Assembly: GCF_034259325.1 (NCBI RefSeq)
Contig: NZ_JAXIVS010000005.1
Location: 310,001-374,000, forward strand
Source of the DNA: Hyalangium ruber
GTDB taxonomy: Bacteria > Myxococcota > Myxococcia > Myxococcales > Myxococcaceae
Reading direction: 5' to 3'
DNA length: 64,000 nt
Positions 2 to 32,200 of the stretch are shown here, piece by piece. The notes beneath the pieces were generated by a model. That model had not been told where the DNA came from, searched no databases, and worked only from the letters and a program-made list of their open reading frames with translations. How positions within the stretch are numbered: position 1 is the stretch's first letter; each line of letters starts with the position of its first letter. Made by a program: the position numbers and the translations under genes.

Positions 2-2239
2 CTGGAGCGCAACTTCAACGCGCTGGTGCTGGACGACAACGGGCACCGGATCGTCGATGAGCAGGGCATCCCGCGGACCGAGCTCATCCCCGGGACCGAG
101 CAGCGCTACTTCGCCGATCAGCAGAGCTTCCAGTACCTGGGCAAGCTCACCTACCTCATCAACGAGGACCACAACGTGTCGGTGTCGGTGTCGGGCGCGC
201 CCTCCTCCGCGGGCGGCAACGGCCGCCTGGCCATCAGCGAGCGCACCGGTCTGCCCGAGACGGAGCGCTTCAACGGCCAGCTCGGCGCCCTCGCCACCCA
301 GCGCACCGCCAACAGCCTGGACACCAGCATCAAGCTGACCTCCTCCTTCCTGGAGAAGCGCCTGCTCTTCAACGTCACCGGCGGCTGGCACCACCAGGAC
401 GTCATCGTCCGCCCCATGGACGGCACCGTCGGCGGTAGCCAGGACGGCCTGTCGGGCGTCTCCAACGTCGACTGGCAGCGCACCACCCGCACCGTCACCT
501 TCGCGGACGTGGAGTACAGCCTGCCGTACCAGCACTCGATCTCCGAGTTCGAGGCCATTCCGGACCCCTCCATCTGTGACGTGGCCGCCGCCGACCCCAG
601 CGTGGCGCCGGATCCCGCGCGGGAGCCGACGCGCTGCCCGGTGCTCAACTACCTGACGGGCGGCCCGGGCCGTCTGGATGAGAGCTCGCTGGACCGCTAC
701 CAGGCCAAGGCCGTGGGCACGCTGCTGGTGAACGCCGCCGGCCAGCACAACTTCAAGGCGGGCGTGGACCTGGAGCACATGGTCTATGACCACATCCGCT
801 CGCTGTCGGGCCGCCGCATGTACCTGGAGGCGGATGACGGCAGCTACTTCCGCGACTTCCGCCAGTACGGCTACCTGCTCGGGCCGGACGAGGTGCTCGT
901 CCAGGACTTCCAGTCGGCGCTGTCCAAGTCCACCGCCGTCGGCGTCTTCGCGCAGGACAGCTGGAGCCTGTTCGACAACCGGGCCACGCTGAACGTGGGC
1001 GTGCGCTACGACACCCAGCGGCTCACCGGCGGCGACAAGCTGGCCCTGGTGCTGGGCAACCAGTGGTCGCCCCGCCTGGGCATCATCGTCGACCCCACCC
1101 GCAGCGGCCGCATGAAGCTCTTCGGCAGCTACGCGCGCTACTACGAGAGCGTCCCGCTGGACATGGTGGACCGCTCCTTCCCCGGCGAGCCGGGCCTGCG
1201 CTCGCGCCGGGACTCGACCCTGTGCAACCCGCTGGATCCCGCCCAGCAGCAGGGCATCTGCTCCAGCGACGAGTCGCGCCTGCCCTACCGCCCCGAGCTG
1301 GACTCCAACCGGCTGTGGGAGACCATCGGCGCTGGCGCCACCATCGTGGACCCCGACATCGAGCCCCAGTCCACGGACGAGTACGTGCTGGGCGGCGAGT
1401 ACGAGCTGTTCTCCAACGCGCGCCTGGGCCTCTCCTATACGCGGCGCTCCATCAACCGCGTGATCGAAGACATGAGCCGCGATGACGGCTCCACCTACTT
1501 CATCGGCAACCCGGGCTATGGCTTCGCCACGGACTTCGTGCTGCCCACGCGCAAGTACGACGCGGTGACGCTCTTCTTCCAGCGCAACTTCGCCGACCTG
1601 TGGCTGGCGCAGGTCAGCTACACGTGGTCCCGCCTGTACGGCAACTATGAGGGCCTGTTCCGCTCGGACAACGGACAGCTCGACCCGAACATCAACTCCG
1701 ACTTCGACCTGGTGTCGCTGCTGCCCAACCGCAAGGGCCTGCTGCCCGCCGACCGCACGCACCAGATCAAGGCGTTCGGCGCCCGGGAGTTCGTCATCCG
1801 TCCGGACCTGAGCCTCAACCTGGGCCTGTCCTACCGCGGCGTCTCCGGCACGCCCTACAGCTACCTCGGCGCGCACATCGACTACGGCGCGGCCCAGGCC
1901 TACATCCTGCCGCGTGGCTCCGGGGGCCGCCTGCCCTGGGTCCACCGCTTCGACAGCCGCCTGGCGCTCAACTACAAGCTCACGCGCGAGATGACCGCCT
2001 CGCTCAGCGTGGACGTGTTCAACCTCTTCAACTTCCAGACCGCCACGATGTACGACCAGAACTACACCTTCTCGGCCGTGCTCCCCATCGAGGGCGGCAC
2101 TCCGGCGGATCTGTCTGGAAAGCTGGTGGATCCGGACGGCAACCCGATCCCCGCGGAGGCGGTGAACAAGAACTTCGGCAAGCCCCTCGCCTACCAGTCG
2201 CCGCGCTCGTTCCGCTTCGGCGCCCGGGTGACGTTCTAG
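2..2239 (+). CDS. TonB-dependent outer-membrane receptor, 5' truncated by window edge
   Basis: Outer-membrane beta-barrel receptor that would import a ligand with energy from TonB. The frame is open from the second base of the window, so the signal peptide, any carboxypeptidase-like N-terminal domain and most of the plug lie outside; about 745 residues of barrel are seen. Repeated amphipathic strands such as VFAQDSWSLFDN and LNVGVRYDTQRL, many Tyr/Trp girdle residues and a C-terminal FRFGARVTF with final Phe are typical of these barrels. Two local Cys pairs (SIC...RCPV and TLCNP...GICSS) suggest disulfide-closed surface loops. The organisation resembles the large Oar-like receptors of myxobacteria. 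A small lipoprotein gene follows after 27 nt and is probably co-expressed. The ligand cannot be told from sequence. Confidence 0.9.
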   Translation: MERNFNALVLDDNGHRIVDEQGIPRTELIPGTEQRYFADQQSFQYLGKLTYLINEDHNVSVSVSGAPSSAGGNGRLAISERTGLPETERFNGQLGALATQRTANSLDTSIKLTSSFLEKRLLFNVTGGWHHQDVIVRPMDGTVGGSQDGLSGVSNVDWQRTTRTVTFADVEYSLPYQHSISEFEAIPDPSICDVAAADPSVAPDPAREPTRCPVLNYLTGGPGRLDESSLDRYQAKAVGTLLVNAAGQHNFKAGVDLEHMVYDHIRSLSGRRMYLEADDGSYFRDFRQYGYLLGPDEVLVQDFQSALSKSTAVGVFAQDSWSLFDNRATLNVGVRYDTQRLTGGDKLALVLGNQWSPRLGIIVDPTRSGRMKLFGSYARYYESVPLDMVDRSFPGEPGLRSRRDSTLCNPLDPAQQQGICSSDESRLPYRPELDSNRLWETIGAGATIVDPDIEPQSTDEYVLGGEYELFSNARLGLSYTRRSINRVIEDMSRDDGSTYFIGNPGYGFATDFVLPTRKYDAVTLFFQRNFADLWLAQVSYTWSRLYGNYEGLFRSDNGQLDPNINSDFDLVSLLPNRKGLLPADRTHQIKAFGAREFVIRPDLSLNLGLSYRGVSGTPYSYLGAHIDYGAAQAYILPRGSGGRLPWVHRFDSRLALNYKLTREMTASLSVDVFNLFNFQTATMYDQNYTFSAVLPIEGGTPADLSGKLVDPDGNPIPAEAVNKNFGKPLAYQSPRSFRFGARVTF

Positions 2240-2266
2240 GCACTGCCACCAGGAAAGGACGAACTC

Positions 2267-2914
2267 ATGACTCCACGAATCCTCGGGCTGGTGCTGGCCA
2301 CCGCCCTGACCGCCGGCTGCGACACGGAGCAGCCTCCCATCGGCTGCCCCGTGCAGAGCCTCGAGTGGGCCGCCACCTACAAGCCCAAGGGCCCCAGCAT
2401 CTGCTCGGTGAAGGTCGGCGAGCAGCTCGGCATCCAGAAGTTCTCCACGCCCACGGGCGACGAGCGGCTCGTCATCAAGCCGGAGACGCTCGCCAAGCTC
2501 GACGAGCAGGACCCGGAGCGCCTCTCGTACTCGCTGGGCGCGCTCGCCAAGTCGTCGGACGCCGAGGGCTTCTGCTCCGCCACCGACTTTCCCCCGACCG
2601 AGAAGCACGTGCCGGGCGGTGACGGCGTGGCCCCGCGGGACCTCGTCTACCAGTGGAACAACGTCCGGGTGCTGGCGACGCCGCGCGCCCCGGGCACGCA
2701 GATGGTGGCGGACCTGACGTACACCGAGAACGGTTGCACGGCGGAGTACGAGGTCTGGGGCATGTGGCCCAGCGTCTCGTGCGAGAACGAGGACGGAGAG
2801 CCGGACAACGACATCTGCCAGAACGCCGGCAGCATCAACCCGGACTTCTCCGTGACGTGCGAGCCCACACTGCGGCTCTGCGTCCCGACCCAGCGCCCGC
2901 CCTCCCTGCAGTAG
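2267..2914 (+). CDS. Cys-rich lipoprotein paired with the TonB receptor
   Basis: Not a family I recognise by name. The 215-residue product starts with a type II signal peptide (MTPRILGLVLATALTAGC, lipobox LTAGC), with Asp right after the lipid-bearing Cys. The mature part is about 195 residues with at least eight further cysteines (for example GCPVQ, SICSV, GFCSA, NGCTA, VSCEN, NDICQ, VTCEP, RLCVP), so it is probably a disulfide-stabilised periplasmic or surface domain. The ATG has a GGAAAGGA-type ribosome site just upstream and lies 27 nt after the receptor stop. The likely role is an accessory or substrate-capturing lipoprotein for that receptor; this is inferred from adjacency only. Confidence 0.8.
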   Translation: MTPRILGLVLATALTAGCDTEQPPIGCPVQSLEWAATYKPKGPSICSVKVGEQLGIQKFSTPTGDERLVIKPETLAKLDEQDPERLSYSLGALAKSSDAEGFCSATDFPPTEKHVPGGDGVAPRDLVYQWNNVRVLATPRAPGTQMVADLTYTENGCTAEYEVWGMWPSVSCENEDGEPDNDICQNAGSINPDFSVTCEPTLRLCVPTQRPPSLQ

Positions 2915-2936
2915 GCGGCCAGGCGGCCCGCGAATA

Positions 2937-2952
2937 GCAACCTTCTGGTTGC
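2937..2952. promoter_or_regulatory. Operator copy 1, GCAACC-N4-GGTTGC
   Basis: Perfect 6-bp dyad GCAACC-TTCT-GGTTGC, overlapping the 5' side of the likely -35 element of the SRPBCC/arsR operon. An identical dyad with another spacer lies 41 bp downstream (centre to centre), close to four helical turns. The best candidate binding protein is the ArsR repressor encoded at 3441-3794. Confidence 0.65.
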
Positions 2953-2977
2953 ACTTTGGACACCCTGTCCTTAAAGT
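2949..2977 (+). promoter_or_regulatory. Candidate sigma-70 promoter of the SRPBCC/arsR operon
   Basis: TTGCAC at 2949-2954 and TAAAGT at 2972-2977 are separated by 17 bp, a plausible -35/-10 pair with imperfect hexamers. The spacer contains a further dyad GGACA-CCC-TGTCC (2958-2970). The pair is embedded between two identical palindromes, so repressor on either would block polymerase. Confidence 0.45.
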
Positions 2978-2993
2978 GCAACCAGGAGGTTGC
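2978..2993. promoter_or_regulatory. Operator copy 2, GCAACC-N4-GGTTGC, covering the ribosome-binding site
   Basis: Perfect dyad GCAACC-AGGA-GGTTGC. Its spacer and right arm contain the AGGAGG ribosome site (2984-2989) for the ATG at 2996. Bound repressor would sit on the transcription start region, and the RNA could fold to hide the ribosome site. With copy 1 it forms a 21-bp inverted repeat with one mismatch (2937-2957 against 2973-2993). Confidence 0.65.
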
Positions 2994-2995
2994 AC

Positions 2996-3460
2996 ATGGC
3001 TGCCACGAACACCGACCGCATCGAGAAGAAGATCCTGCTGCGCGCTCCGCGCTCCCGCGTCTGGCGGGCAATCACGAATGCCGAGGAGTTCGGCCAGTGG
3101 TTCGGCGTGAAGCTCGCCAGCCCGTTCGCCCCCGGTGCTCGCGTTCAGGGCACCGTCACCAACCCGGGCTACGAGCACGTCAAGTTCGAGCTCACCGTCG
3201 AGCGGATGGAGCCCGAGCGACACTTCTCCTGGCGCTCGCACCCCCACCCCGTCGAGCCCGGGGCGGATTACTCCGCCGAGCCCACCACCCAGGTCATCTT
3301 CGAGCTGGAGGAGGTCCCCGGAGGAACGATGCTCACCCTGGTGGAGGCCGGCTTCGATCAGCTCCCGCTCGCGCGCCGCGCCGAGGCGTACCGAGGCAAC
3401 GAGGAGGGCTGGGGCATCCAGATGAAGAACATCGAGCGCTATGTCGGGCAGACCGCTTGA
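2996..3460 (+). CDS. SRPBCC (AHSA1/START-like) domain protein
   Basis: A 154-residue single-domain member of the Bet v1-like SRPBCC fold, in the AHSA1 group that often travels with ArsR regulators. Typical signatures are IEKKILLRAPRSRVWRAITNAEEFGQWFG near the N-terminus, an acidic/aromatic centre (RHFSWRSHP), and the terminal helix GWGIQMKNIERYV that closes the hydrophobic cavity. The ATG at 2996 is chosen over an upstream TTG because AGGAGG lies 6 nt before it. The gene overlaps the following arsR gene by 20 nt, so the two are co-translated. These proteins bind small hydrophobic ligands; the ligand here is unknown. Expression is probably controlled by the twin palindromes upstream. Confidence 0.88.
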   Translation: MAATNTDRIEKKILLRAPRSRVWRAITNAEEFGQWFGVKLASPFAPGARVQGTVTNPGYEHVKFELTVERMEPERHFSWRSHPHPVEPGADYSAEPTTQVIFELEEVPGGTMLTLVEAGFDQLPLARRAEAYRGNEEGWGIQMKNIERYVGQTA

Positions 3461-3794
3461 GGGCGGGGCGAACCCCTCCGAGCTGAACGCCTCCGCGCCC
3501 ATCTTCGCGGCCCTGGGGGACGAGACACGTCTGCGGCTCGTGTCGCGCCTGTGCGTGGAGGGGCCCATGTCCATCGCGCGGCTCAGTGACGGCTCGGGAG
3601 TCACTCGCCAGGCCATCACCAAGCACCTGCACGTGCTCGCCGATGCGGGGCTGGTGCGCGGCACGCGCCATGGCCGGGAGAGCCTCTGGGAGCTCGAGCC
3701 CCAGCGGCTGGAGGAGGCGCGTCGGTGCCTGGATCACATCTCGCGACAGTGGGATGAGGCGCTCGGCCGCCTGAAAGCGCTTGTCGAGGGTTAG
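3441..3794 (+). CDS. ArsR-family winged-helix transcriptional regulator
   Basis: A 117-residue winged-helix repressor. ALGDETRLRLVSRLC is the classic ArsR N-terminal helix, followed by the helix-turn-helix MSIARLSDGSGVTRQAITKHLHVLADAGLV and the wing RGTRHGRESLWELE. I see no Cys or His metal-site motif (no CxC), so it belongs to the non-metal, SRPBCC-linked ArsR type. The C-terminal helix (DHISRQWDEALGRLKALVEG) is amphipathic and probably forms the dimer. The start lies inside the SRPBCC gene. The natural target is the GCAACC-N4-GGTTGC pair upstream of the operon, giving autorepression; that is inferred from position and symmetry. Confidence 0.92.
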   Translation: MSGRPLEGGANPSELNASAPIFAALGDETRLRLVSRLCVEGPMSIARLSDGSGVTRQAITKHLHVLADAGLVRGTRHGRESLWELEPQRLEEARRCLDHISRQWDEALGRLKALVEG

Positions 3795-3837
3795 GGGCCC
3801 GCTGCCCTGGCTGGGAGCAAAACCGTATGATCGGGGC

Positions 3838-6800
3838 GTGAAACCGCCGAGTCCGTTACCCGCGGAGTACGAAGACGAGCTGCACCTCGCGTTGATCGAG
3901 GGAGTGCTGTCCCGGGAACAGCTGGAGCACCTGCGCGCGGAAGCCGTCCGCCTGGAGCGCAGCCCCCTGGAGCTGATGCTGGAGCGGGGGCAAGTCTCCC
4001 CCGAGACGCTCTCTTCGCTGCGAGAGGAGGTCCAGCGTCAGGCCCGAGCCGCCACCCAGGAGCCCGCCACCCAGAAGCCCGGGTCCTCCGCGCCCGCCAC
4101 TCCTTCGGAGCCGGTCTTCCCCCTGCCCCACTGGGACCGCTACCAGCCGGTGCGCTTCCTCGGCCAGGGCGGCATGGGCCAGGTGTTCCTCGCCTATGAC
4201 CCGCGGCTGCGCCGCAACGTGGCCCTCAAGTTCGTGCGCGATGGCACCCCCGAGCTCTCGCAGCGCTTCCTGTCCGAGGCGCGCGCCCAGGCCCGCGTCC
4301 ACCACGAGCGCGTGTGCGAGATGTACGAGGTGGGCGAGGTCCAGGGCCGGGCCTATATCGCCATGCAGTACGTGGAGGGCCGGCACCTGGGCCAGCTCGC
4401 CTCCGAGCTCACCCTGGAGCAGAAGATCCTGGTGATGAGGGACGTCGCCGAGGGCGTACACGCCGCCCACCGCGCCGGGCTCATCCACCGCGACCTGAAG
4501 CCCTCCAACATCCTCGTGGAGCGCACCGAGGACGGGGGCCTCAAGCCCTACGTCATGGACTTCGGCCTGGCGCGCGACTGGCGCGGGGAGAACACCGCCA
4601 CGGGCGCGGTGCTGGGCACGCCGCACTACATGGCCCCCGAGCAGGCCCGGGGCGAGGTGTCGCGCCTGGACCGGCGGGTGGACGTCTACAGCCTGGGGGC
4701 CACGCTCTATCAAGTGCTGGTGGGCCAGCCGCCCTTCTCCGGCATCAACGCCCTGGAGGTGGTCAGCCGCATCCAATCCGAGGAGCCCCGCTCGCCCCGG
4801 GCGCTGGACCCGGACATCCCGGTGGACCTGGAGGCCATCACCCTCAAGTGCCTGGAGAAGGAGCGCTCGGCCCGCTACGACTCGGCGCGGGCCCTGGCCG
4901 AGGACCTGGAGCGGTTCCTTGGCGGAGAGCCGGTGCAGGCACGGCCGGCCGGCGTCCTCTACCGGCTGCGCAAGAAGGTCCGCAAGCACCGCATCGCGGT
5001 GGCCCTGGGCTCCGCCGCGCTGCTGGTGGTGATGCTGGCCCTGGGGCAATCGGTGCTGGCCCGCCGCGAGGTGACGCTGCGCGAGCGCCTGTCCCGCCGC
5101 TTCACCGAGCTGGTGGAGCGCATCGAGGCCATGGCGCGCTACTCCGCCATGGCGCCGCTGCATGACACGCGCGGTGACCGGCAGGCCATCCTCTCGCGGA
5201 TGGGCGAGCTGGAGACTGAGGTGCGCCAGGGCGGCGCCCGCGCCGAGGGGCCAGGAAACTACGCCGTGGGGCGGGCCCTGCTCGCCCTGGGAGACACCGA
5301 GGGGGCGCGCGCGCAGCTCGAGTCCGCCTGGCAGCGCGGCTACCGCGAGGCGCGCGTGGCCTATGCGCTGGCGCTGGCGCTGGGCCAGCTCTACCAGGAG
5401 CACCTCCTGGAGGTGGAGCGCATCCGCAACGCGGATCAGCGCGAGGCCCGCCGCCGGGAGATCGAACGCCACTATCGGGATCCGGCCCTGGTCTATCTCC
5501 GCCAGAGCCAGGGGGCCGAGGAGCTGTCGCCCGAGTACGTGGCGGCGCTGCTGGCCTTCTACGAGGGCCGCTATGACGAGGCGCTGTCCGGCCTGGAGGC
5601 CATGCGGACCACGAACCCCTGGTTCTACGAGGCGCCCCTGCTGCGCGGCGACATCTTCCTGGCGCGCGCCCTGCAGCGAAAGGGCAATGGAGACCGCACC
5701 GGCGCGCTGGCGGACCTGGAGGCGGCGCGGCAGGCCCAGGCCGTGGCCGCCGACATCGGCGAGAGCCTGCCCGTCGTGTACTACGCGATGGCGCGCCTGG
5801 AGCACGCCTCCCTCGTCCTGGAGCTCTACGGCCAGGGAGAGATCGAACCGGCCTACCAGCGGGGCCTGGAGGCGCTGTCCCGCGCGCTCACCGCCTCGCC
5901 GGATCACTTCAAGTCCATGCTGGTGGAGTCGCGCCTCCACCGCCGCATGGCCGAGCAGCGCATCCAGCAGGGTGGTGAGGTGCAGCCCCTGCTGGACAAG
6001 GCCCTGGCCGCCACGCGCGCGGCGCAGGCGCTCGCGCCCGAGCACCCGTGGGTCCATATGGAGATGGCGCAGGTGCTCCGCCAGTGGGCGCGCTACCGCC
6101 AGGAGCACAGCGAGGACCCGGGCGAGCAGCTGCGACAGACCATCGAGTCCCTGGAGCGCATCAAGCCCGAGGACCGCGACTATGCCTTCCACCTCGAGCG
6201 AGGGCTGGCCTTCAAGGTGTGGGCGGACGCCGAGGAGCAGCGCGGCGAGGACTCGTTGCCCCGCCGGGGGCAGGCCATCGACGCCTACCTCGCGGCCATC
6301 CAGCTCGAGCCCGCGTACGCGGACGCCTGGATCAACCTCGGGACCGCGTACTTCAAGCGCGCCTCGTCCCCACGGGCCGGCGACGCCCATGGGGACCTGC
6401 AGAAGGCCCTGGAGGCGCTGGCGAAGGCGCGGAGCATCGACCCCGGCAACCATGTGACGTACTTCTACGAGGGCCAGGTGTACGAGACGCGGGCCCGGCG
6501 GAGCGCCAACCGGGACGCGCCCACCGAGCCGGACCTCTCGCAGGCCATCGAGATGTACCGCAAGGGGCAGGCCATCAACGGCAAGCTGCCCCAGTTCCCC
6601 AATGTCCTCGGCCTGGCGTTGGTGCTGCAGGCACAGCTGGTGTGGGACGAGGGAGGCGATGCCCTCCCGGTGCTGGATCAGGCCCAGGCGGCCTTCGAGC
6701 AGGCCCGTACCCTGGCTCCGCAGCAGGCTCACGCCTACAACAACCTCGGCGAGGTGCATGACTTCCGGGCGGCGTTCCTGAGAAGGAAGGGCGTCGATTC

Positions 6801-25694: not shown

Positions 25695-25830
25695 GGACAA
25701 CCTCCGGGCTCAAGGCCGTGCGGATTGTTCGGCTCCGAGGGAGGATGTGCAAACCCGTGATCAACTCAGCGACGGGTCGGTGTCTGGAATGAAATAGGCA
25801 GCCAGCGCCGGACAACAATTCCCCTGCCCC

Positions 25831-26478
25831 TCAGGGCTGGGTAATCACTCGCGCCGGCACTCCGACCGCCACCACGCGAGGCGGCAGATCGCCGAGGACC
25901 ACCGCGCCCGCCCCCACCACCGCTTCATCCCCCACGGCTTTGCCTGGCAGGACGGAGGCGCCAAGGCCCAGGTGCGCCAGGGCGCCGATGCGCACCGCGC
26001 CGCCGAGCGTCGCGTTGGGCGAGAGGTGGGCGAACTCACCCACCTCGCAGTCGTGCTCGACGATGGCGCCGCTGTTGATGATCGCCCCCGTTCCCACCTG
26101 GGCGTCCGGGTTGATGACGGCCTGGGCCATGACCACTGCCCCGGCGCCGACGCGGGCGGACTCGGCCACGGCGGCCGTCGGGTGGATCAAGGTGGCCAGC
26201 GTCAGCTCCAGCCGCTCGCACAGCGCGGAGATGCGGCGCCGCGCGTGGTTGTCTCCCACGCCCAGCGCGACGAGGATCTCCGAGCGATGCGCTTCGAGCC
26301 AGGCGGCCCCGCCGAGAACAGGAAGGCCAAGCACCCTGCTGCCTTCCGGCATCGCATCATCGACGAAGCCGACCACGACCAGGCCACACAGCAAGGCGAT
26401 GTCGGCGACCACCTTGCCGTGGCCACCGCAGCCATAAACGACCAGCCTGGGCTTTGCGCGCTCGTTCGGCACTGGCAT
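25831..26478 (-). CDS. pglD: PglD-like UDP-4-amino-sugar N-acetyltransferase
   Basis: A 215-residue left-handed beta-helix acetyltransferase. The N-terminal Rossmann-like nucleotide-sugar part (RLVVYGCGGHGKVVADIALLCG) and the hexapeptide repeats (ARVGAGAVVMAQAVINPDAQVGTGAIINSGAIVEH) match the PglD/NeuD group. The proposed catalytic base is the His in IVEHDCEVGEFAHLSP, and the tail VAVGVPARVI is typical. It would use acetyl-CoA to acetylate the 4-amino group made by the aminotransferase at 16565. It is the first gene of the minus-strand unit. A divergent gene starts 176 nt away, so a two-way promoter region is expected at 26479-26654, but I see no clear hexamers there. Confidence 0.9.
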   Translation of the reverse strand: MPVPNERAKPRLVVYGCGGHGKVVADIALLCGLVVVGFVDDAMPEGSRVLGLPVLGGAAWLEAHRSEILVALGVGDNHARRRISALCERLELTLATLIHPTAAVAESARVGAGAVVMAQAVINPDAQVGTGAIINSGAIVEHDCEVGEFAHLSPNATLGGAVRIGALAHLGLGASVLPGKAVGDEAVVGAGAVVLGDLPPRVVAVGVPARVITQP

Positions 26479-26654
26479 TCACCGATTTGAAAGCTGTCAC
26501 CTGGGGGCGGTTTTCGCACCTTCTACAAGTACATCTGCCCCGCATCGCCCAGCGCACAACACCCTTATGCCCTGGGGGGAATAACAACACGCTTGCCTCT
26601 ATGACTAGTCTCCCGAGGTACGGCAAGAGAGCACGGGACCTGGGGGGCCGCTGG

Positions 26655-27608
26655 ATGACGACAATGGTGAAACTAAGGGCCGTCTTGGTCCCTGACGAGG
26701 GGAAATCGGCGCAGTCGGAGGACTACTTCCGCTCAGCCCACCACCTGCGCGCCGAGGGCGTGACGCACACCCTGGTCATCGACGGAGGCGAGGGCAGATC
26801 GCTGCGGCTGCCGCTCATCGTTCGAGTCATCGAGGGCACACCGTACCGCGACGCCGTCTCGCCCTATGGCTTCCCCAGCGGGGTGCAGGCCGGGTTGAGC
26901 GAGCTGCCCAAGGACGCGGTGGACTGGCAGGGCAGCGAGCTGGTCAGCATCTTCGTGCGAGACCGCGTCTCCCGCCCTCCCTGCTTCGCGGGAGGCACGC
27001 CGCGCAACGAGGTGTTCTTCGTCGATCCCCGCCTGCCCATCCGCTTCCGGGAGACGCACCGCCGGCACGTGCGGCGCAACCTCCGGGAGGGCTTCGTGAG
27101 CACCTGCCACGCGGCGCGGGAGACGTCGCCCGAGGAGCGCGAGGGCTTCAAGGCGGTCTACCGGCAGACCATGGTCCGCGATCGGGCCAGCGCCCGGTAC
27201 TTCTTCTCGGATGCGTACTTCGAGGAGCTGTTCTCTTCCCCATCCGCATGGCTCGCCACGACGCGCGCCCCGGAGGGACAGATCGCCTCCTCGGCGCTCG
27301 GCGTCACCAGCGACGGCGTGCTGCACTACTACCTCGGAGGGACGGCGGACGCGTACCTGGCGCGCTCGCCGGCCAAGAACGTGCTGGCGACGCTCGCCGA
27401 GCTGGGCACCCAGCTCGGGCTCGCCTTCAACCTGGGGGGCGGCATGCAGCCGGGTGACAGCCTCGAGGACTTCAAGCGGGGCTTCGCCAACACGAGCGCC
27501 CGCCTCTACACCCATGAGATCATCTGCGAGCCGTCGGTGTATGCCCGCCTCTCGGAGGGCCACACCGACGGAAACTACTTCCCGGCCTACCGCGCGAAGC
27601 TGCGCTGA
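26655..27608 (+). CDS. FemAB/GNAT-type acyltransferase 2
   Basis: A 317-residue protein of the FemAB-like acyltransferase group. RFRETHRRHVRRNLREGFVST is the characteristic basic helix (HRRxxRRNLR). It is followed by FKAVYRQTMVRDRASARYFFSDAYFEELF and the C-terminal GNAT sheet with GVLHYYLGGTADAYLARSPAKNVLATLAELGTQLGLAFNLGGGMQPGDSLEDFKRGF. Some family members transfer amino acids from aminoacyl-tRNA. The ATG at 26655 has a G-rich ribosome site 8 nt upstream; the open frame extends 5' across the divergent promoter. The 3' end overlaps the convergent pglF-like gene by 22 nt. Confidence 0.82.
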   Translation: MTTMVKLRAVLVPDEGKSAQSEDYFRSAHHLRAEGVTHTLVIDGGEGRSLRLPLIVRVIEGTPYRDAVSPYGFPSGVQAGLSELPKDAVDWQGSELVSIFVRDRVSRPPCFAGGTPRNEVFFVDPRLPIRFRETHRRHVRRNLREGFVSTCHAARETSPEEREGFKAVYRQTMVRDRASARYFFSDAYFEELFSSPSAWLATTRAPEGQIASSALGVTSDGVLHYYLGGTADAYLARSPAKNVLATLAELGTQLGLAFNLGGGMQPGDSLEDFKRGFANTSARLYTHEIICEPSVYARLSEGHTDGNYFPAYRAKLR

Positions 27609-29539
27609 TCGCTCACGGCCGCGCTCTTGAGGGGAATCGCGCCCGGCGTATACGTGGGGATGAGCTCGCAGAGGGAGCGCTTCACGCCGAAGTCGTCACC
27701 CACCTGCGCCGCCAACCCGAGCCGCTCGAGCTGGACGTGGAAGTCCGCGGGCGGCGCCGGGCTCTGGGCCACCTTGATGCGGTTGCGGACCTGCTGGGTG
27801 AGCTCCTCCTCCTCGCTCAGCAGCGTCTCCTCGAGCTTCTCGCCCGGCCGCAGCCCCGTGAAGACGATGGGGATGTCCTTGCCGGGCACCAGGCCCGCCA
27901 TGGTGATGAGGTTCGCGGCCAGCTCGGCGATGCGCACCGGGGCGCCCATGTCGAGGATGCAGAGCTCGCCGTAGCCTCCCAGCCCCGCCAGCACCACGAG
28001 GCCCACCGCCTCGGGGATCGTCATGAAGTAGCGGGTGCAGTCCGGGTGCGTCACCGTGACCGGCCCCCCGCGCTGGATCTGCTGCTTGAACAGCGGCACC
28101 ACGCTGCCCGCCGAGCCCAGCACGTTGCCGAACCGGACGGCGGTGAACGCCGTGCGCGACTTCGCCGCCACGTCCCGGATGACCATCTCCGCCAGCCGCT
28201 TGGAGGCCCCCATCACCGAGGAGGGGTGGACCGCCTTGTCGGTGGAGATGAGCACGAAGCGCTCCGCGCCACAGGCGTCCGCCATGCGCGCGACGTTCCG
28301 GGTGCCGAAGACGTTGTTCTTGATGGCCTCCTCGGGCGAGTCCTCCATCAGCGGCACGTGCTTGTGGGCGGCCGCGTGGAATACGTACTGCGGCGCGTGC
28401 TCCTTGCCGAGGCGCATCAGCCGATCCACGTCCCGGATGTCCGCCACGATGGAGCTCACCGGGAGCTGGGGGTAGCGCTCCTGCAGGTGGCGCACGAGGA
28501 AGTAGAGCTCGTTCTCGTTGATGTCGAGCAGCGCGAGCGAGGCGGGCGCGTGCCCCGCCACCTGGCGTGCGATCTCGCTGCCGATGGAGCCCGCCGCCCC
28601 GGTGATGAGGATGCGGCGGCCGACGATGAGCCGGTGTACTTCCTCGCGGTCGAACGAGATCGCGTCCCGGGGCAGCAGGTCCTCCGGGCTGAGGTCATGC
28701 AGCATCGCGGCGGTGATCTTCTGATCGAGGTAGGCGAACGAGGCGGGGATGATCTTGAAGCTCACGCTCTGGTGCTTGCACAGGCCCAGGATGCTCCGGA
28801 TGCGGTCGGGGGACAGGCGGGGGATGGCGATGAGCACATGGCTCACGCGGTGCTTCGTCACCAGCTCCGGCAGCGCCTCGATGGCACCGAGCACCCGCTT
28901 GCCGTTGAGGAAGGTGCCGTGCTTGCCGGGATCGTCGTCCACCAGACCGACGACGTGCCAGGGGCTGTCCGAGGTGCTCAGCAGATCGCGCAGCAGGAGG
29001 TCTCCCGCGCTGCCAGCCCCGACGACGATCGTCCGCTTCACCCCCTGCGCCCGCGAGCGCTGCTGATCGAGGTACCACAGCCGCGCCAGTCGCGGCGCGA
29101 AGCGGTGGACCCCCATCAGGGCCGTGGTGAAGAAGAACTCGATGGTGACCACCGAGCGTGGCAGGGGATCGAGGAAGAAGAAGGAGCGTGCCGCCTCGAA
29201 CACGATGGTGGCGATCGCATTGGCCAGAATGAGCCGGCCCGCTTCCGTGAGGCCGGAGCTGCGGAAGCTCCAGCGGTGCAGCCGGAACCAGACCAGGGTG
29301 GCCAGGCGCACCGCGAGCAGCAGCGGCAGGCTGCGCTCCAGCGCCCCCTGCCACCGCTCGGGCAGCTGCCCATCGAAGCGCAGCACCACCGCCCAGAAGA
29401 GCGCGCCCGCGGTGATCGCCGCGTCCAGCAACAGCATGAGCAACGAGCGCAGCCCTGGAGACCGCCGCAGGCGACCTTCTACCGGATCCCCTGAACGCAC
29501 GACCCCAGGCAGATCACTTCCGTACACCTCTTGCGCCAT
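27587..29539 (-). CDS. pglF: PglF-like nucleotide-sugar 4,6-dehydratase (membrane-bound, FlaA1/CapD family)
   Basis: A 650-residue enzyme expected to convert UDP-GlcNAc to the 4-keto-6-deoxy sugar. It has four N-terminal membrane helices (about 30-180), a CoA_binding_3/Rossmann domain (TIVVGAGSAGDLLLRDLL) and the catalytic SDR domain with ILITGAAGSIGSEIARQ, VFHAAAHKHVPLMEDSP and STDKAVHPSSVMGASKR. In the last motif Met replaces the usual catalytic Tyr (MxxxK), as known for WbpM/PglF. The C-terminal FTGLRPGEKLEETLL is conserved. The start at 29539 follows a GGGGGAGAG ribosome site. It supplies the substrate for the aminotransferase and PglD. Confidence 0.92.
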   Translation of the reverse strand: MAQEVYGSDLPGVVRSGDPVEGRLRRSPGLRSLLMLLLDAAITAGALFWAVVLRFDGQLPERWQGALERSLPLLLAVRLATLVWFRLHRWSFRSSGLTEAGRLILANAIATIVFEAARSFFFLDPLPRSVVTIEFFFTTALMGVHRFAPRLARLWYLDQQRSRAQGVKRTIVVGAGSAGDLLLRDLLSTSDSPWHVVGLVDDDPGKHGTFLNGKRVLGAIEALPELVTKHRVSHVLIAIPRLSPDRIRSILGLCKHQSVSFKIIPASFAYLDQKITAAMLHDLSPEDLLPRDAISFDREEVHRLIVGRRILITGAAGSIGSEIARQVAGHAPASLALLDINENELYFLVRHLQERYPQLPVSSIVADIRDVDRLMRLGKEHAPQYVFHAAAHKHVPLMEDSPEEAIKNNVFGTRNVARMADACGAERFVLISTDKAVHPSSVMGASKRLAEMVIRDVAAKSRTAFTAVRFGNVLGSAGSVVPLFKQQIQRGGPVTVTHPDCTRYFMTIPEAVGLVVLAGLGGYGELCILDMGAPVRIAELAANLITMAGLVPGKDIPIVFTGLRPGEKLEETLLSEEEELTQQVRNRIKVAQSPAPPADFHVQLERLGLAAQVGDDFGVKRSLCELIPTYTPGAIPLKSAAVSDQRSFAR

Positions 29540-29774
29540 TGGCTCTCCCCCCTGTGACGAGCGGACAGAGGGTGGAGAGGGAGCAAGCCAGTTTAAAGTT
29601 GCCCTGGAGAGCAGGGACTTTGATGCAAGGGCGCGTGTGCTCCCGCCCCGAAGGTCCATTCCAGCGGTTTCGTGTTCCCCCTCGGCCAGGGAGCCCCTGC
29701 GTACGATGCAGTTCCGGCGCTCTCACCCCAAAACCTCGGCCGCCTTTCGCGGTCCATCCCAATGGGGGAAGAAC

Positions 29775-31019
29775 ATGTCCTGGTCTCGATGGTTCCCGGT
29801 GCTCCTGGGTGTCTTGCTGCTTCCTGGTTTCGTACAGGTCGCGGAGGCGGGTTGTACCTATTCGGCCTGCACCAATACGACGGCGGTCGATCACACCTTC
29901 AGCGCTGGCACGCGATGGACGTTCAATATCCAGACATGCCCGTGTGAGGGATTGGTGATCTCCTCGGCGACCTTCACGCCCAAGGGGGGCACTCCCCGCC
30001 TGGTGCTCAACAGAGGCAGCATCGCGGAGATCCACGTTCCCTACCTGGCTGGCACTCCGCGCTTCCTGGACATCTCCGAGTCCACGAGCGGGCTCGGCCC
30101 CAACGCCATTCCCTTGACCGCGGCGGAGTGCGCGGGCGGCACGCTGCTGGCTGGCAACCGTGTCTGCAAGAACATCGAACATCACGACTACGCCTGGAAG
30201 TATTTCAACACCCACCAGCACAGCGAGAATGTCTCGGTGTACATGGCCTCGCAGTTGGGTGAGTACACCTACGTCAACCTGTGGGAGTTTCACGACACAG
30301 GTGTCATCGAGCCTCGGCTGGGGCTCACGGGCCGGCTCCAGATCGTCTCGCCGGGCGCGGGCTATGCCCCCTATGGCGGCCGCATGAACCCGCAGTCGGA
30401 GGCGACTCCGCTGATCGGGCTCTCGCACATGCACAACATCTACTACCGGCTCGACTTCGATCTGGCGGGCGCGGGCAATGACGCCGTTGAGCAGCTCAGC
30501 TTCCAGCCCTCGAACGTGGCGTCACCGAACGCCTCCTGCGCCACGCCCGGGCAGTGCGCCGTCAACGTGGTGACGCCCATCCTCACCGAGGCGGCGCAGG
30601 ACTTCGTCCCCACCGCCTACACGAGCTGGCGCGTCTACGACAAGCTCATCAACAACAGCGACGGCCGGAAGATTGGCTATGAGATCGTCCCCGACGTCCA
30701 CGGCGTGTGGAGCGGCATGACGGCCGGGTCGGAGCCCTGGTCCTCTCACGAGATGTTCGTCACCCGCTTCGCTGGGTGCGAGAGCCTCGCGGTGGGCAAC
30801 GTCCCGCCCCACATCGCCCCCTCGTGTACCTCGGTGCCCTCCCACGTGAGCGCGATGGTCAACGGGCAGTCCGTGGACGGGCAGGACGTGGTGCTCTGGT
30901 ACGTCAACCGGCACCTGCACAAGCCGCGTGACGAGGATCAGGTCAACATGCCCATCGAGTGGATGCACTTCGAGATCAAGCCGAGCAGCTTCCACCACAA
31001 GAGCCCGCTGGAGCTGTAA
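29775..31019 (+). CDS. Secreted copper amine oxidase, catalytic domain only
   Basis: A 414-residue exported protein (signal peptide MSWSRWFPVLLGVLLLPGFVQVAEA) that aligns with the C-terminal catalytic domain of copper/topaquinone amine oxidases, which turn primary amines into aldehydes with H2O2 and NH3. The conserved N-terminal CPCEGLVIS strand, VPYLAGTPRFLDISESTSGLG (catalytic-base Asp99), the loop Cys pair, copper ligands His218 and His220 (SHMHNIYYRLDFDL) and third ligand His398 (MPIEWMHFEIKP) are all present. The cofactor Tyr would be Tyr164 in GEYTY; family consensus is N-Y-(D/E)-Y, so both flanking residues differ. The usual N-terminal D2/D3 domains (about 200 residues) are absent. ATG 29775 follows GGGGGAAG. 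The 235-bp gap before it is a divergent promoter region with pglF. Confidence 0.85.
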   Translation: MSWSRWFPVLLGVLLLPGFVQVAEAGCTYSACTNTTAVDHTFSAGTRWTFNIQTCPCEGLVISSATFTPKGGTPRLVLNRGSIAEIHVPYLAGTPRFLDISESTSGLGPNAIPLTAAECAGGTLLAGNRVCKNIEHHDYAWKYFNTHQHSENVSVYMASQLGEYTYVNLWEFHDTGVIEPRLGLTGRLQIVSPGAGYAPYGGRMNPQSEATPLIGLSHMHNIYYRLDFDLAGAGNDAVEQLSFQPSNVASPNASCATPGQCAVNVVTPILTEAAQDFVPTAYTSWRVYDKLINNSDGRKIGYEIVPDVHGVWSGMTAGSEPWSSHEMFVTRFAGCESLAVGNVPPHIAPSCTSVPSHVSAMVNGQSVDGQDVVLWYVNRHLHKPRDEDQVNMPIEWMHFEIKPSSFHHKSPLEL

Positions 31020-32109
31020 TGCTCCCGATCGCCGCCGGTGGGGCCCGGTAGGCCGGGAAGAAGGCCCCGGTGAACTCCTGGGCGTGGTAGCGACTCCAGC
31101 TCTCGACCAGCCGGGCATACACGGCCGGCTGGTGGATCTTCCTGCCGAGGTTGAGCGCCAACGTGCCCTCGGGGTTGAAGCGGTGCTTGAACTGGAAGAG
31201 CGAGTCGCGGCCCCGGTGCCCTCCTCCCAGGTGGAAGGTACGCAGCCCGGCTCGCCGGGCCCACAGCGCCAACTGGTGGAACTGGAAGACGTTGGGCCCC
31301 AGGTGCAGTGACGCCTCTTCCGAGGCCCCCAGGTGGTAGACGAGCGCGTCCCCCTCGCGCAGGCACAGCGCGGCGGAGATCATCCGCCCGTCGAGGAAGA
31401 CCGCGCCCAGCAGGGCGCTCGAGCCGAAGCACGCGAACAGCCGCTCCAGGTACTGCGTCGAGAAATAGAAGTACGGAAGCGCCTGCAGCTTGTCCATCGT
31501 CGCGCGGTAGAGGCGATAGAAGACCTCGAGGTGTTCGAGCGCCTCGGGCCCGGCGAGCACACGGAACTCCAGCCCGTTCTTCAGCGCCTTGCGGATGTTC
31601 CGCTGGTGGTTGGCGTGGTAGCGGTCGAGCAGCTCCTCCTCCGTCAGGGAGAGATCCATGAAGACGGTCTCCCGATCGAAGGTGATGTCCATCGTCCCCC
31701 CGAGGTGCCGGTGGTTGCCCAGCAGCGGGTGGAAGCGGACGAACTCGCTGACGATGTTGGCGCCGCGGCAGTACGCCTCGAACTCCGCCCGGAAGGCCCG
31801 AAGCACCAGCTCGCGGGGCTCCGCGCAGAGCGGACCTCCGTAGCCGTAGGTGGGGCTGATGATGTCGTACCAGTCCCCTTCGAGCCGTGCGTCCCCAAAG
31901 AAGGGCAGCCCCCGGATCGGCCTGCGGATGAAGGCGTAGCAAACCCTGTTGCCCACCCTATCCGAGTACGCGAAGAGGAAGGGGTCGCCATCCCCCATGC
32001 AGCGGCAGAGCTCCGCATAGGCGTGGAGATAGTAGACGTCCTTGAGTGAAAGCTGCGCGTACGCGGATGCCCACCGCTCTGGCTCTGAGAACGAGATGAT
32101 CTCGTGCAT
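30976..32109 (-). CDS. FemAB/GNAT-type acyltransferase 3
   Basis: A 377-residue FemAB-like protein, the most complete of the three in this locus, with two GNAT-like halves. DRYHANHQRNIRKALKNGLEFRV is the family's NxRxxIRKA helix. FYRLYRATMDKLQALPYFYFSTQYLERLF and LVYHLGASEEASLHLGPNVFQFHQLALWARRAGLRTFHLGGG match 'lipid II:glycine glycyltransferase-like' proteins. The ATG at 32109 follows GAGAGGGG; a GTG six codons earlier is less likely. The 3' end overlaps the amine oxidase gene by 44 nt in convergent orientation. Substrate unknown; aminoacylation or acylation of the exported polymer is the contextual guess. Confidence 0.82.
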   Translation of the reverse strand: MHEIISFSEPERWASAYAQLSLKDVYYLHAYAELCRCMGDGDPFLFAYSDRVGNRVCYAFIRRPIRGLPFFGDARLEGDWYDIISPTYGYGGPLCAEPRELVLRAFRAEFEAYCRGANIVSEFVRFHPLLGNHRHLGGTMDITFDRETVFMDLSLTEEELLDRYHANHQRNIRKALKNGLEFRVLAGPEALEHLEVFYRLYRATMDKLQALPYFYFSTQYLERLFACFGSSALLGAVFLDGRMISAALCLREGDALVYHLGASEEASLHLGPNVFQFHQLALWARRAGLRTFHLGGGHRGRDSLFQFKHRFNPEGTLALNLGRKIHQPAVYARLVESWSRYHAQEFTGAFFPAYRAPPAAIGSITAPAGSCGGSCSA

Positions 32110-32200
32110 GGGAAGTCCCCTCTCCACGCCAGTGTGGAGCAGGCGGGCGGCCAGCAGTCAGGCCCCCAGGTCTCGGGGGATCTGCGACCACTGAACAGTC

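Follow-up and report, generated by a model that had tools for sequence, protein, structure and literature searches.

The window (the whole 64,000-nt stretch of DNA analysed) carries a polysaccharide export cluster specifying Wza, Wzc, a Wzy-type protein, a glycosyltransferase, PglD, PglF and two FemAB-type proteins, and within it, on the plus strand, lies a gene for a short copper amine oxidase (nt 29,775–31,019). A PglF-type polysaccharide dehydratase gene (nt 27,587–29,659, minus strand; PF02719, E = 6.9e-104) is divergent from the oxidase gene, and a gene annotated as a FemAB-type acetyltransferase (nt 30,976–32,127, minus strand) is convergent with it and overlaps it by 44 nt, an arrangement already noted in the preliminary description of this DNA. 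Both neighbours are treated here as lying outside the oxidase system. The first FemAB-type gene of the cluster matches only the Acetyltransf_6 domain. The open reading frame of the oxidase, its coordinates and its length of 414 aa were all confirmed, and the choice of start codon is backed both by the alignment of ten N-termini and by a purine-rich sequence, GGGGGAAG, that ends 3 nt before it. Open frames are also present on the minus strand of the same interval.

The oxidase matches a single Pfam family, Cu_amine_oxid (PF01179, E = 3.6e-36), over residues 47–411 and 384 of the 407 model positions. Its score of 125.4 bits, against a curated cut-off of 27, places it among proteins with the catalytic (D4) domain, and it was the only PF01179 match found in the 10.77-Mb genome. 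Two primary-amine-oxidase models of NCBIfam were matched far under their cut-offs. Among solved structures, 38 distinct sequences were matched (E up to 1), the best being phenylethylamine oxidase (AGAO; E = 7.8e-16). Neither the window protein nor the two orthologs tested gave a match to the N2 or N3 domains, whereas the same search returned N2- and N3-type matches in all three full-length relatives. Together with the PF01179 match and a profile–profile alignment that holds the catalytic positions in register (see below), this bears out the earlier view of a catalytic-domain-only copper amine oxidase without D2 and D3. AlphaFold2 modelling from six sequences (the window protein and five orthologs) returned a pLDDT of 37.8.

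Residues 1–25 (nt 29,775–29,849, plus strand) form a probable Sec signal peptide, recognised by eye from a basic residue, a hydrophobic stretch and the sequence A-E-A before residue 26. Among the ten orthologs (the window protein included) A25 is invariant, while A23 and E24 are conserved at 90% or more. Ten cysteines are likewise invariant. C119 and C131 of the window protein fall opposite AGAO cysteines that form a disulfide in that enzyme. The invariant cysteines and the signal-like N-terminus fit export of the protein, which had previously been called secreted; the signal-like N-terminus stands, and export itself is best described as probable. The spacing between the catalytic base and the cofactor precursor is about 20 residues shorter than in full-length forms, and just before the base there is a net loss of five residues relative to them (a seven-column gap and a two-residue insertion).

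A profile of the ten orthologs was aligned with a profile of eleven full-length relatives from the phylum (99.9% over 349 columns). The alignment pairs Asp99 (nt 30,069–30,071) with the invariant Asp that serves as catalytic base, Tyr90 (nt 30,042–30,044) with the Tyr of the V-P-Y sequence of the family, Tyr164 with the precursor of the cofactor, His218 and His220 (nt 30,426–30,434) with the HxH copper ligands, and His382 (nt 30,918–30,920) with the distal His, all on the plus strand. No variation occurs among the ten orthologs at any of these six residues (D99, Y90, Y164, H218, H220, H382) or at Y166. The earlier assignments of Asp99, Tyr164, His218 and His220 thus hold, and that of His398 as the third copper ligand does not, since this residue falls opposite a Gly in the full-length profile and the other nine orthologs have Ser there; His382 takes its place. 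Tyr90 is taken as the residue that hydrogen-bonds the quinone, V-P-Y being where the family carries this Tyr. A review of the family describes a Tyr with that function (PMC3382800).

The cofactor motif, E163-Y164-T165-Y166 (nt 30,261–30,272, plus strand), is in register with the N-Y-D-Y of the full-length relatives, E163 aligning with the family Asn and T165 with the family Asp. Position 163 varies between E, Q, A and T among the ten orthologs, and at position 165 nine have T and one has M, so that the earlier report of an atypical E-Y-T-Y is sound as regards the departure from N-Y-D-Y but its Glu does not characterise the clade. The consensus around the precursor is given in the same review as T-x-x-N-Y-D/E, with the Asn called strictly conserved (PMC3382800). 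All ten orthologs instead have Q-L-G-[EQAT]-Y-[TM]-Y, in which the consensus Thr is replaced by Q, and on this account the oxidase is filed as a variant rather than a standard member of the family. By alignment, both residues that flank the precursor Tyr are changed across one myxobacterial clade.

The window oxidase resembles AGAO and the E. coli primary amine oxidase in its near-complete D4 domain, the precursor Tyr, the Asp base, the V-P-Y Tyr, and the HxH pair with a distal His. It differs from full-length relatives in lacking N2 and N3, in an identity of only about 25% and in the replacement of the motif Asn and Asp/Glu, and the loss of about five residues (net) before the base and the ten invariant cysteines set it apart from bacterial copper amine oxidases. 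Full-length oxidases of the same phylum (L027–L032, L063 and L065–L067) have the same catalytic residues as the short form but are encoded by open frames of 645–778 aa, carry N-Y-D-Y and form a separate group in the tree; at L028–L032 the N-terminus, read by eye, resembles a lipobox. The tree includes 13 full-length rows, and N-Y-(D/E)-Y is present in 11 of them; the remaining two carry N-Y-I-Y (L068, a 721-aa open frame of genome G136) and H-Y-D-Y. The last is encoded on a plasmid of Leisingera caerulea (L107, nt 2293–4209), is annotated as hypothetical and retains both N2 and N3.

More distant relatives were found on plasmids. They include a protein of Variovorax sp. WDL1 (P0002; plasmid 3, L108, nt 1505–3094), annotated as hypothetical and encoded next to a galactose-oxidase-like gene, a divergent amine-oxidase-like protein of Nonomuraea (L120, nt 2797–4371), and a hypothetical protein of Microvirga ossetica (L119, nt 2755–4575) in which an amine-oxidase-like part is followed by F-Y-P-[IL]-N-N-Q-type repeats. 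In all three the precursor Tyr and the three His align, while the motif is broken (W-Y-R-Y for N-Y-D-Y in the first two, A-Y-H-I in the third), the base Asp is unaligned, and N- or C-terminal parts differ; their branches are very long, which makes their placement in the tree unsure. Plasmid pMPI of Deinococcus radiodurans carries an amine-oxidase fragment (L117, nt 2480–3370) that has no annotated gene, begins just before an N-Y-D-Y and lies downstream of IS4-like transposase genes. The plasmid regions were chosen by eye (7 from the 85 records that match the window protein, 2 from the 5 that match the Variovorax protein), so no motif frequency follows from them.

Nine orthologs, 59–64% identical to the window protein, were detected. 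The short form is carried by 10 of 96 genomes of the family, including that of the window, and a further 6 of the 96 showed only a 27–31% match to the full-length form. An alignment-based search of 195 genomes of the phylum returned no further short forms. PF01179 was matched in 22 of these 195, comprising 10 short forms, 10 full-length forms with N-Y-D-Y, the full-length L068 with N-Y-I-Y, and L078, which is at a contig end and in which no motif was seen. Each of the 22 genomes gave one match only and none has both forms, but with 10 and 12 carriers among 195 genomes this lack of co-occurrence says little. The spread by genus is patchy (2/16, 2/4, 2/7 and 3/27 genomes in four genera, plus the window genome, the sole member of its genus among the 96). 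Among genome contigs, the alignment search gave named short-form loci in two Corallococcus, Hyalangium versicolor, Pyxidicoccus caerfyrddinensis and P. fallax, names that point to Myxococcaceae in the broad GTDB sense as the family surveyed, and a scan with the single window protein gave no match. No relatives were found in the viral contigs scanned, nor in phage records queried with the Variovorax relative only.

In a tree of 26 rows (midpoint-rooted, with long-branch warnings for the atypical rows), the short form is a single clade with support of 100/100, and its stem measures 1.36 changes per site. The dN/dS ratios of all 45 ortholog pairs range from 0.20 to 0.78, as estimated by a simple counting method that is heuristic for such G+C-rich genes, and are 0.54 (L019/L020), 0.49 (L024/L025) and 0.32 (L018/L023) for close pairs. 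Only 2 of 32 neighbouring frames, themselves called by a heuristic, had a higher ratio than the oxidase in the three close pairs (0/8, 1/11 and 1/13). These figures point to a constraint on the oxidase that is moderate to loose. Its faster evolution than nearly all of its neighbours fits many exported proteins, and also fits a relaxed function.

In the copper amine oxidase family, Cu(II) and O2 convert the precursor Tyr to topaquinone, and the enzyme then oxidises primary amines to aldehydes with the release of H2O2. The reading we prefer for the window protein, with a probability of roughly 55%, is a stand-alone, exported oxidase of primary amines that has only the D4 catalytic domain left. 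After export, copper and O2 would turn Tyr164 into topaquinone, either at a low rate or with the aid of compensating residues, and the enzyme would convert R-CH2-NH2 to an aldehyde, NH3 and H2O2, acting independently of the adjacent polysaccharide genes. That a working quinone is formed on a single D4 domain lacking the flanking Asn and Asp/Glu is proposed more tentatively, at a little below even odds.

Published mutants of two model enzymes bear directly on this. The N381A mutant of AGAO still made topaquinone, with biogenesis reduced to 1/180 and kcat to 1/160 (PMC9491219), so an enzyme of this family can lose the Asn and still make the cofactor. In HPAO, N404A contained only 5–10% topaquinone, N404D halved the rate, and Glu406Gln slowed topaquinone formation by an order of magnitude (PMC3382800). 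The equivalents of HPAO 404 and 406 are both changed in the window clade, which counts against the preferred reading. From the mutant data, the clade would have a slow site, or compensating residues, or have left topaquinone chemistry; the first two are jointly ranked above the third because the base, the V-P-Y Tyr and all ligands are kept.

The third outcome, in which the Tyr164–copper site no longer makes topaquinone and the protein is a copper binder, or an oxidase using another cofactor or chemistry on the old fold, is unlikely but is the strongest of the alternatives. Both flanking residues that tune biogenesis are gone clade-wide and position 163 drifts between E, Q, A and T; changes at these sites cost the model enzymes from 2-fold (N404D) to 180-fold (PMC3382800, PMC9491219); W-Y-R-Y or A-Y-H-I stands at the motif in other distant relatives; and the oxidase evolves faster than 30 of the 32 neighbouring frames compared. 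Against this, Tyr164, the base, Tyr90 and the three His are invariant in the ten orthologs, and a pure copper binder would need neither the base nor Tyr90.

If the protein is an exported amine oxidase, as preferred here, its amine channel should be wide, since both D2 and D3 are missing and W-S-W-R has been lost ahead of the base, and bulky amines (peptidyl lysine, or polyamines on a surface) would then be its likeliest substrates. The residues of the amine channel named in the family review include HPAO positions 155 and 156 (PMC3382800). These positions would lie in the missing domains, hence the predicted open channel. A bacterial copper amine oxidase is also tied to a possible peptide substrate in graspetide group 41, the clusters of which are described as co-occurring with such an enzyme (PMC13097080); compared by description only, the window oxidase differs in that no neighbour family is common to all ten loci (frames of at least 80 aa). 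The same lack of a conserved partner gene, which might have pointed to a specialised polymer pathway, would suit a scavenger of small amines, or a source of H2O2 in predation, with free amines rather than polymers as the substrate. Bacterial members of the family usually oxidise small amines, and aromatic amines are named as substrates of the E. coli enzyme (PMC4640556). Neither an aldehyde dehydrogenase nor an amine transporter is present among the nine annotated neighbours, however, and loss of N2 and N3 would be unexpected in a small-amine enzyme, so this role is rated less likely again than the loss of topaquinone.

The genomic setting of the nine orthologs was compared with that of the window. 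Their loci fall into five contexts that differ from that of the window oxidase, and tblastn at 1e-4 gave no match there to any of eight proteins of the polysaccharide cluster (4.5–19.5 kb each, 158,991 bases). The sole tblastn matches there besides the oxidase were to the ABC-transporter ATPase of the window, at two of the nine. By gene calling, two families other than the oxidase are common to unlike contexts, one sensor-kinase-like by eye (four loci, two contexts) and the other the ABC ATPase (three loci, two contexts). PglF was matched at 1e-150 in 28 of 92 genomes, and the 27 loci in other genomes showed no oxidase next to it (flanks up to 1.5 kb). Seven of the nine ortholog genomes are within the 92 (G053 and G068 are outside), and all seven have PglF, never beside the oxidase. 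In six it is on a different contig, a separation that in these drafts is only as good as the contigs (the oxidase contig of G024 is only 4.5 kb), and in G034 PglF is at 10.78 Mb and the oxidase at 1.54 Mb of a single 12.35-Mb contig. Four relatives (L082, L085, L089 and L092) have the order FemAB1, PglF, PglD, FemAB2. The window shows a local rearrangement of this order (nt 25,831–32,127), with PglD beyond FemAB1 and the oxidase in the slot of PglD between PglF and FemAB2.

At the loci compared there is no conserved linkage of the oxidase with polysaccharide genes. With linkage absent elsewhere and PglD in the corresponding slot of four relatives, the convergent overlap is most likely an accident of this genome, and the polysaccharide genes appear to be chance neighbours. 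The preliminary description put forward that the enzyme serves the adjacent polysaccharide or coat system by oxidising matrix amines to aldehydes and so cross-linking the matrix. This role is very improbable given the 0/9 ortholog loci with cluster proteins, the 0/27 PglF loci with the oxidase and the seven genomes in which the two genes are apart, even though the oxidase sits within a genuine export cluster here, is probably exported and could act on a matrix while unlinked. The likeness to lysyl oxidase (LOX, with lysine tyrosylquinone) consists only of this proposed reaction, and LOX is described as non-homologous to the topaquinone enzymes (PMC3382800).

The oxidase may instead be expressed on its own. 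A stretch of about 108 bp precedes it (nt 29,667–29,774, plus strand); blastn and alignment show that several orthologs share a conserved counterpart even though their contexts are unlike. The L018 and L024 copies match over 109 nt (76%, E = 1.3e-15) and those of L022 and L024 over 91 nt (72.5%, E = 1.5e-8), these E-values referring to a tiny sequence set, while L019 matches L024 over only 33 nt. In the longer matches similarity ends near −108. The copy in the window gave no blastn match to the ortholog stretches, and in a multiple alignment it partly resembles them. Such conservation in unlike contexts suggests that the oxidase carries its own promoter, and it is probably transcribed from this upstream stretch. 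In some orthologs AAC is followed about 15 nt on by GCGGTC, with a spacing of 14 nt in the window; L018 has ACC instead of AAC, and L019 and L020 are without GCGGTC. CorE sites are described as AAC plus a G 16–18 nt away (PMC3107203), and by analogy there is a hint of a CorE-type, copper-responsive promoter. More generally, the stretch in the window and at L018–L026 is possibly a promoter of the ECF type. A search for RNA families over nt 25,800–32,200 found nothing.

Among the matches listed from open-licence literature, in titles and abstract openings, there was no description of a copper amine oxidase that is D4-only or lacks the Asn. The role of the Asn before the precursor Tyr has been worked out on damaged mutants. 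A natural clade that lacks both the Asn and its partner, with the other catalytic residues kept, offers a direct test of what self-assembly of the cofactor needs. If the proposed reading is correct, there would be an alternative set of residues for cofactor self-assembly, and D2 and D3 would be dispensable; the protein would be an oxidase of about 43 kDa with an open active site and macromolecular lysine as a substrate. Should it prove active, this single-domain form would in addition offer a compact scaffold for the oxidation of protein amines.
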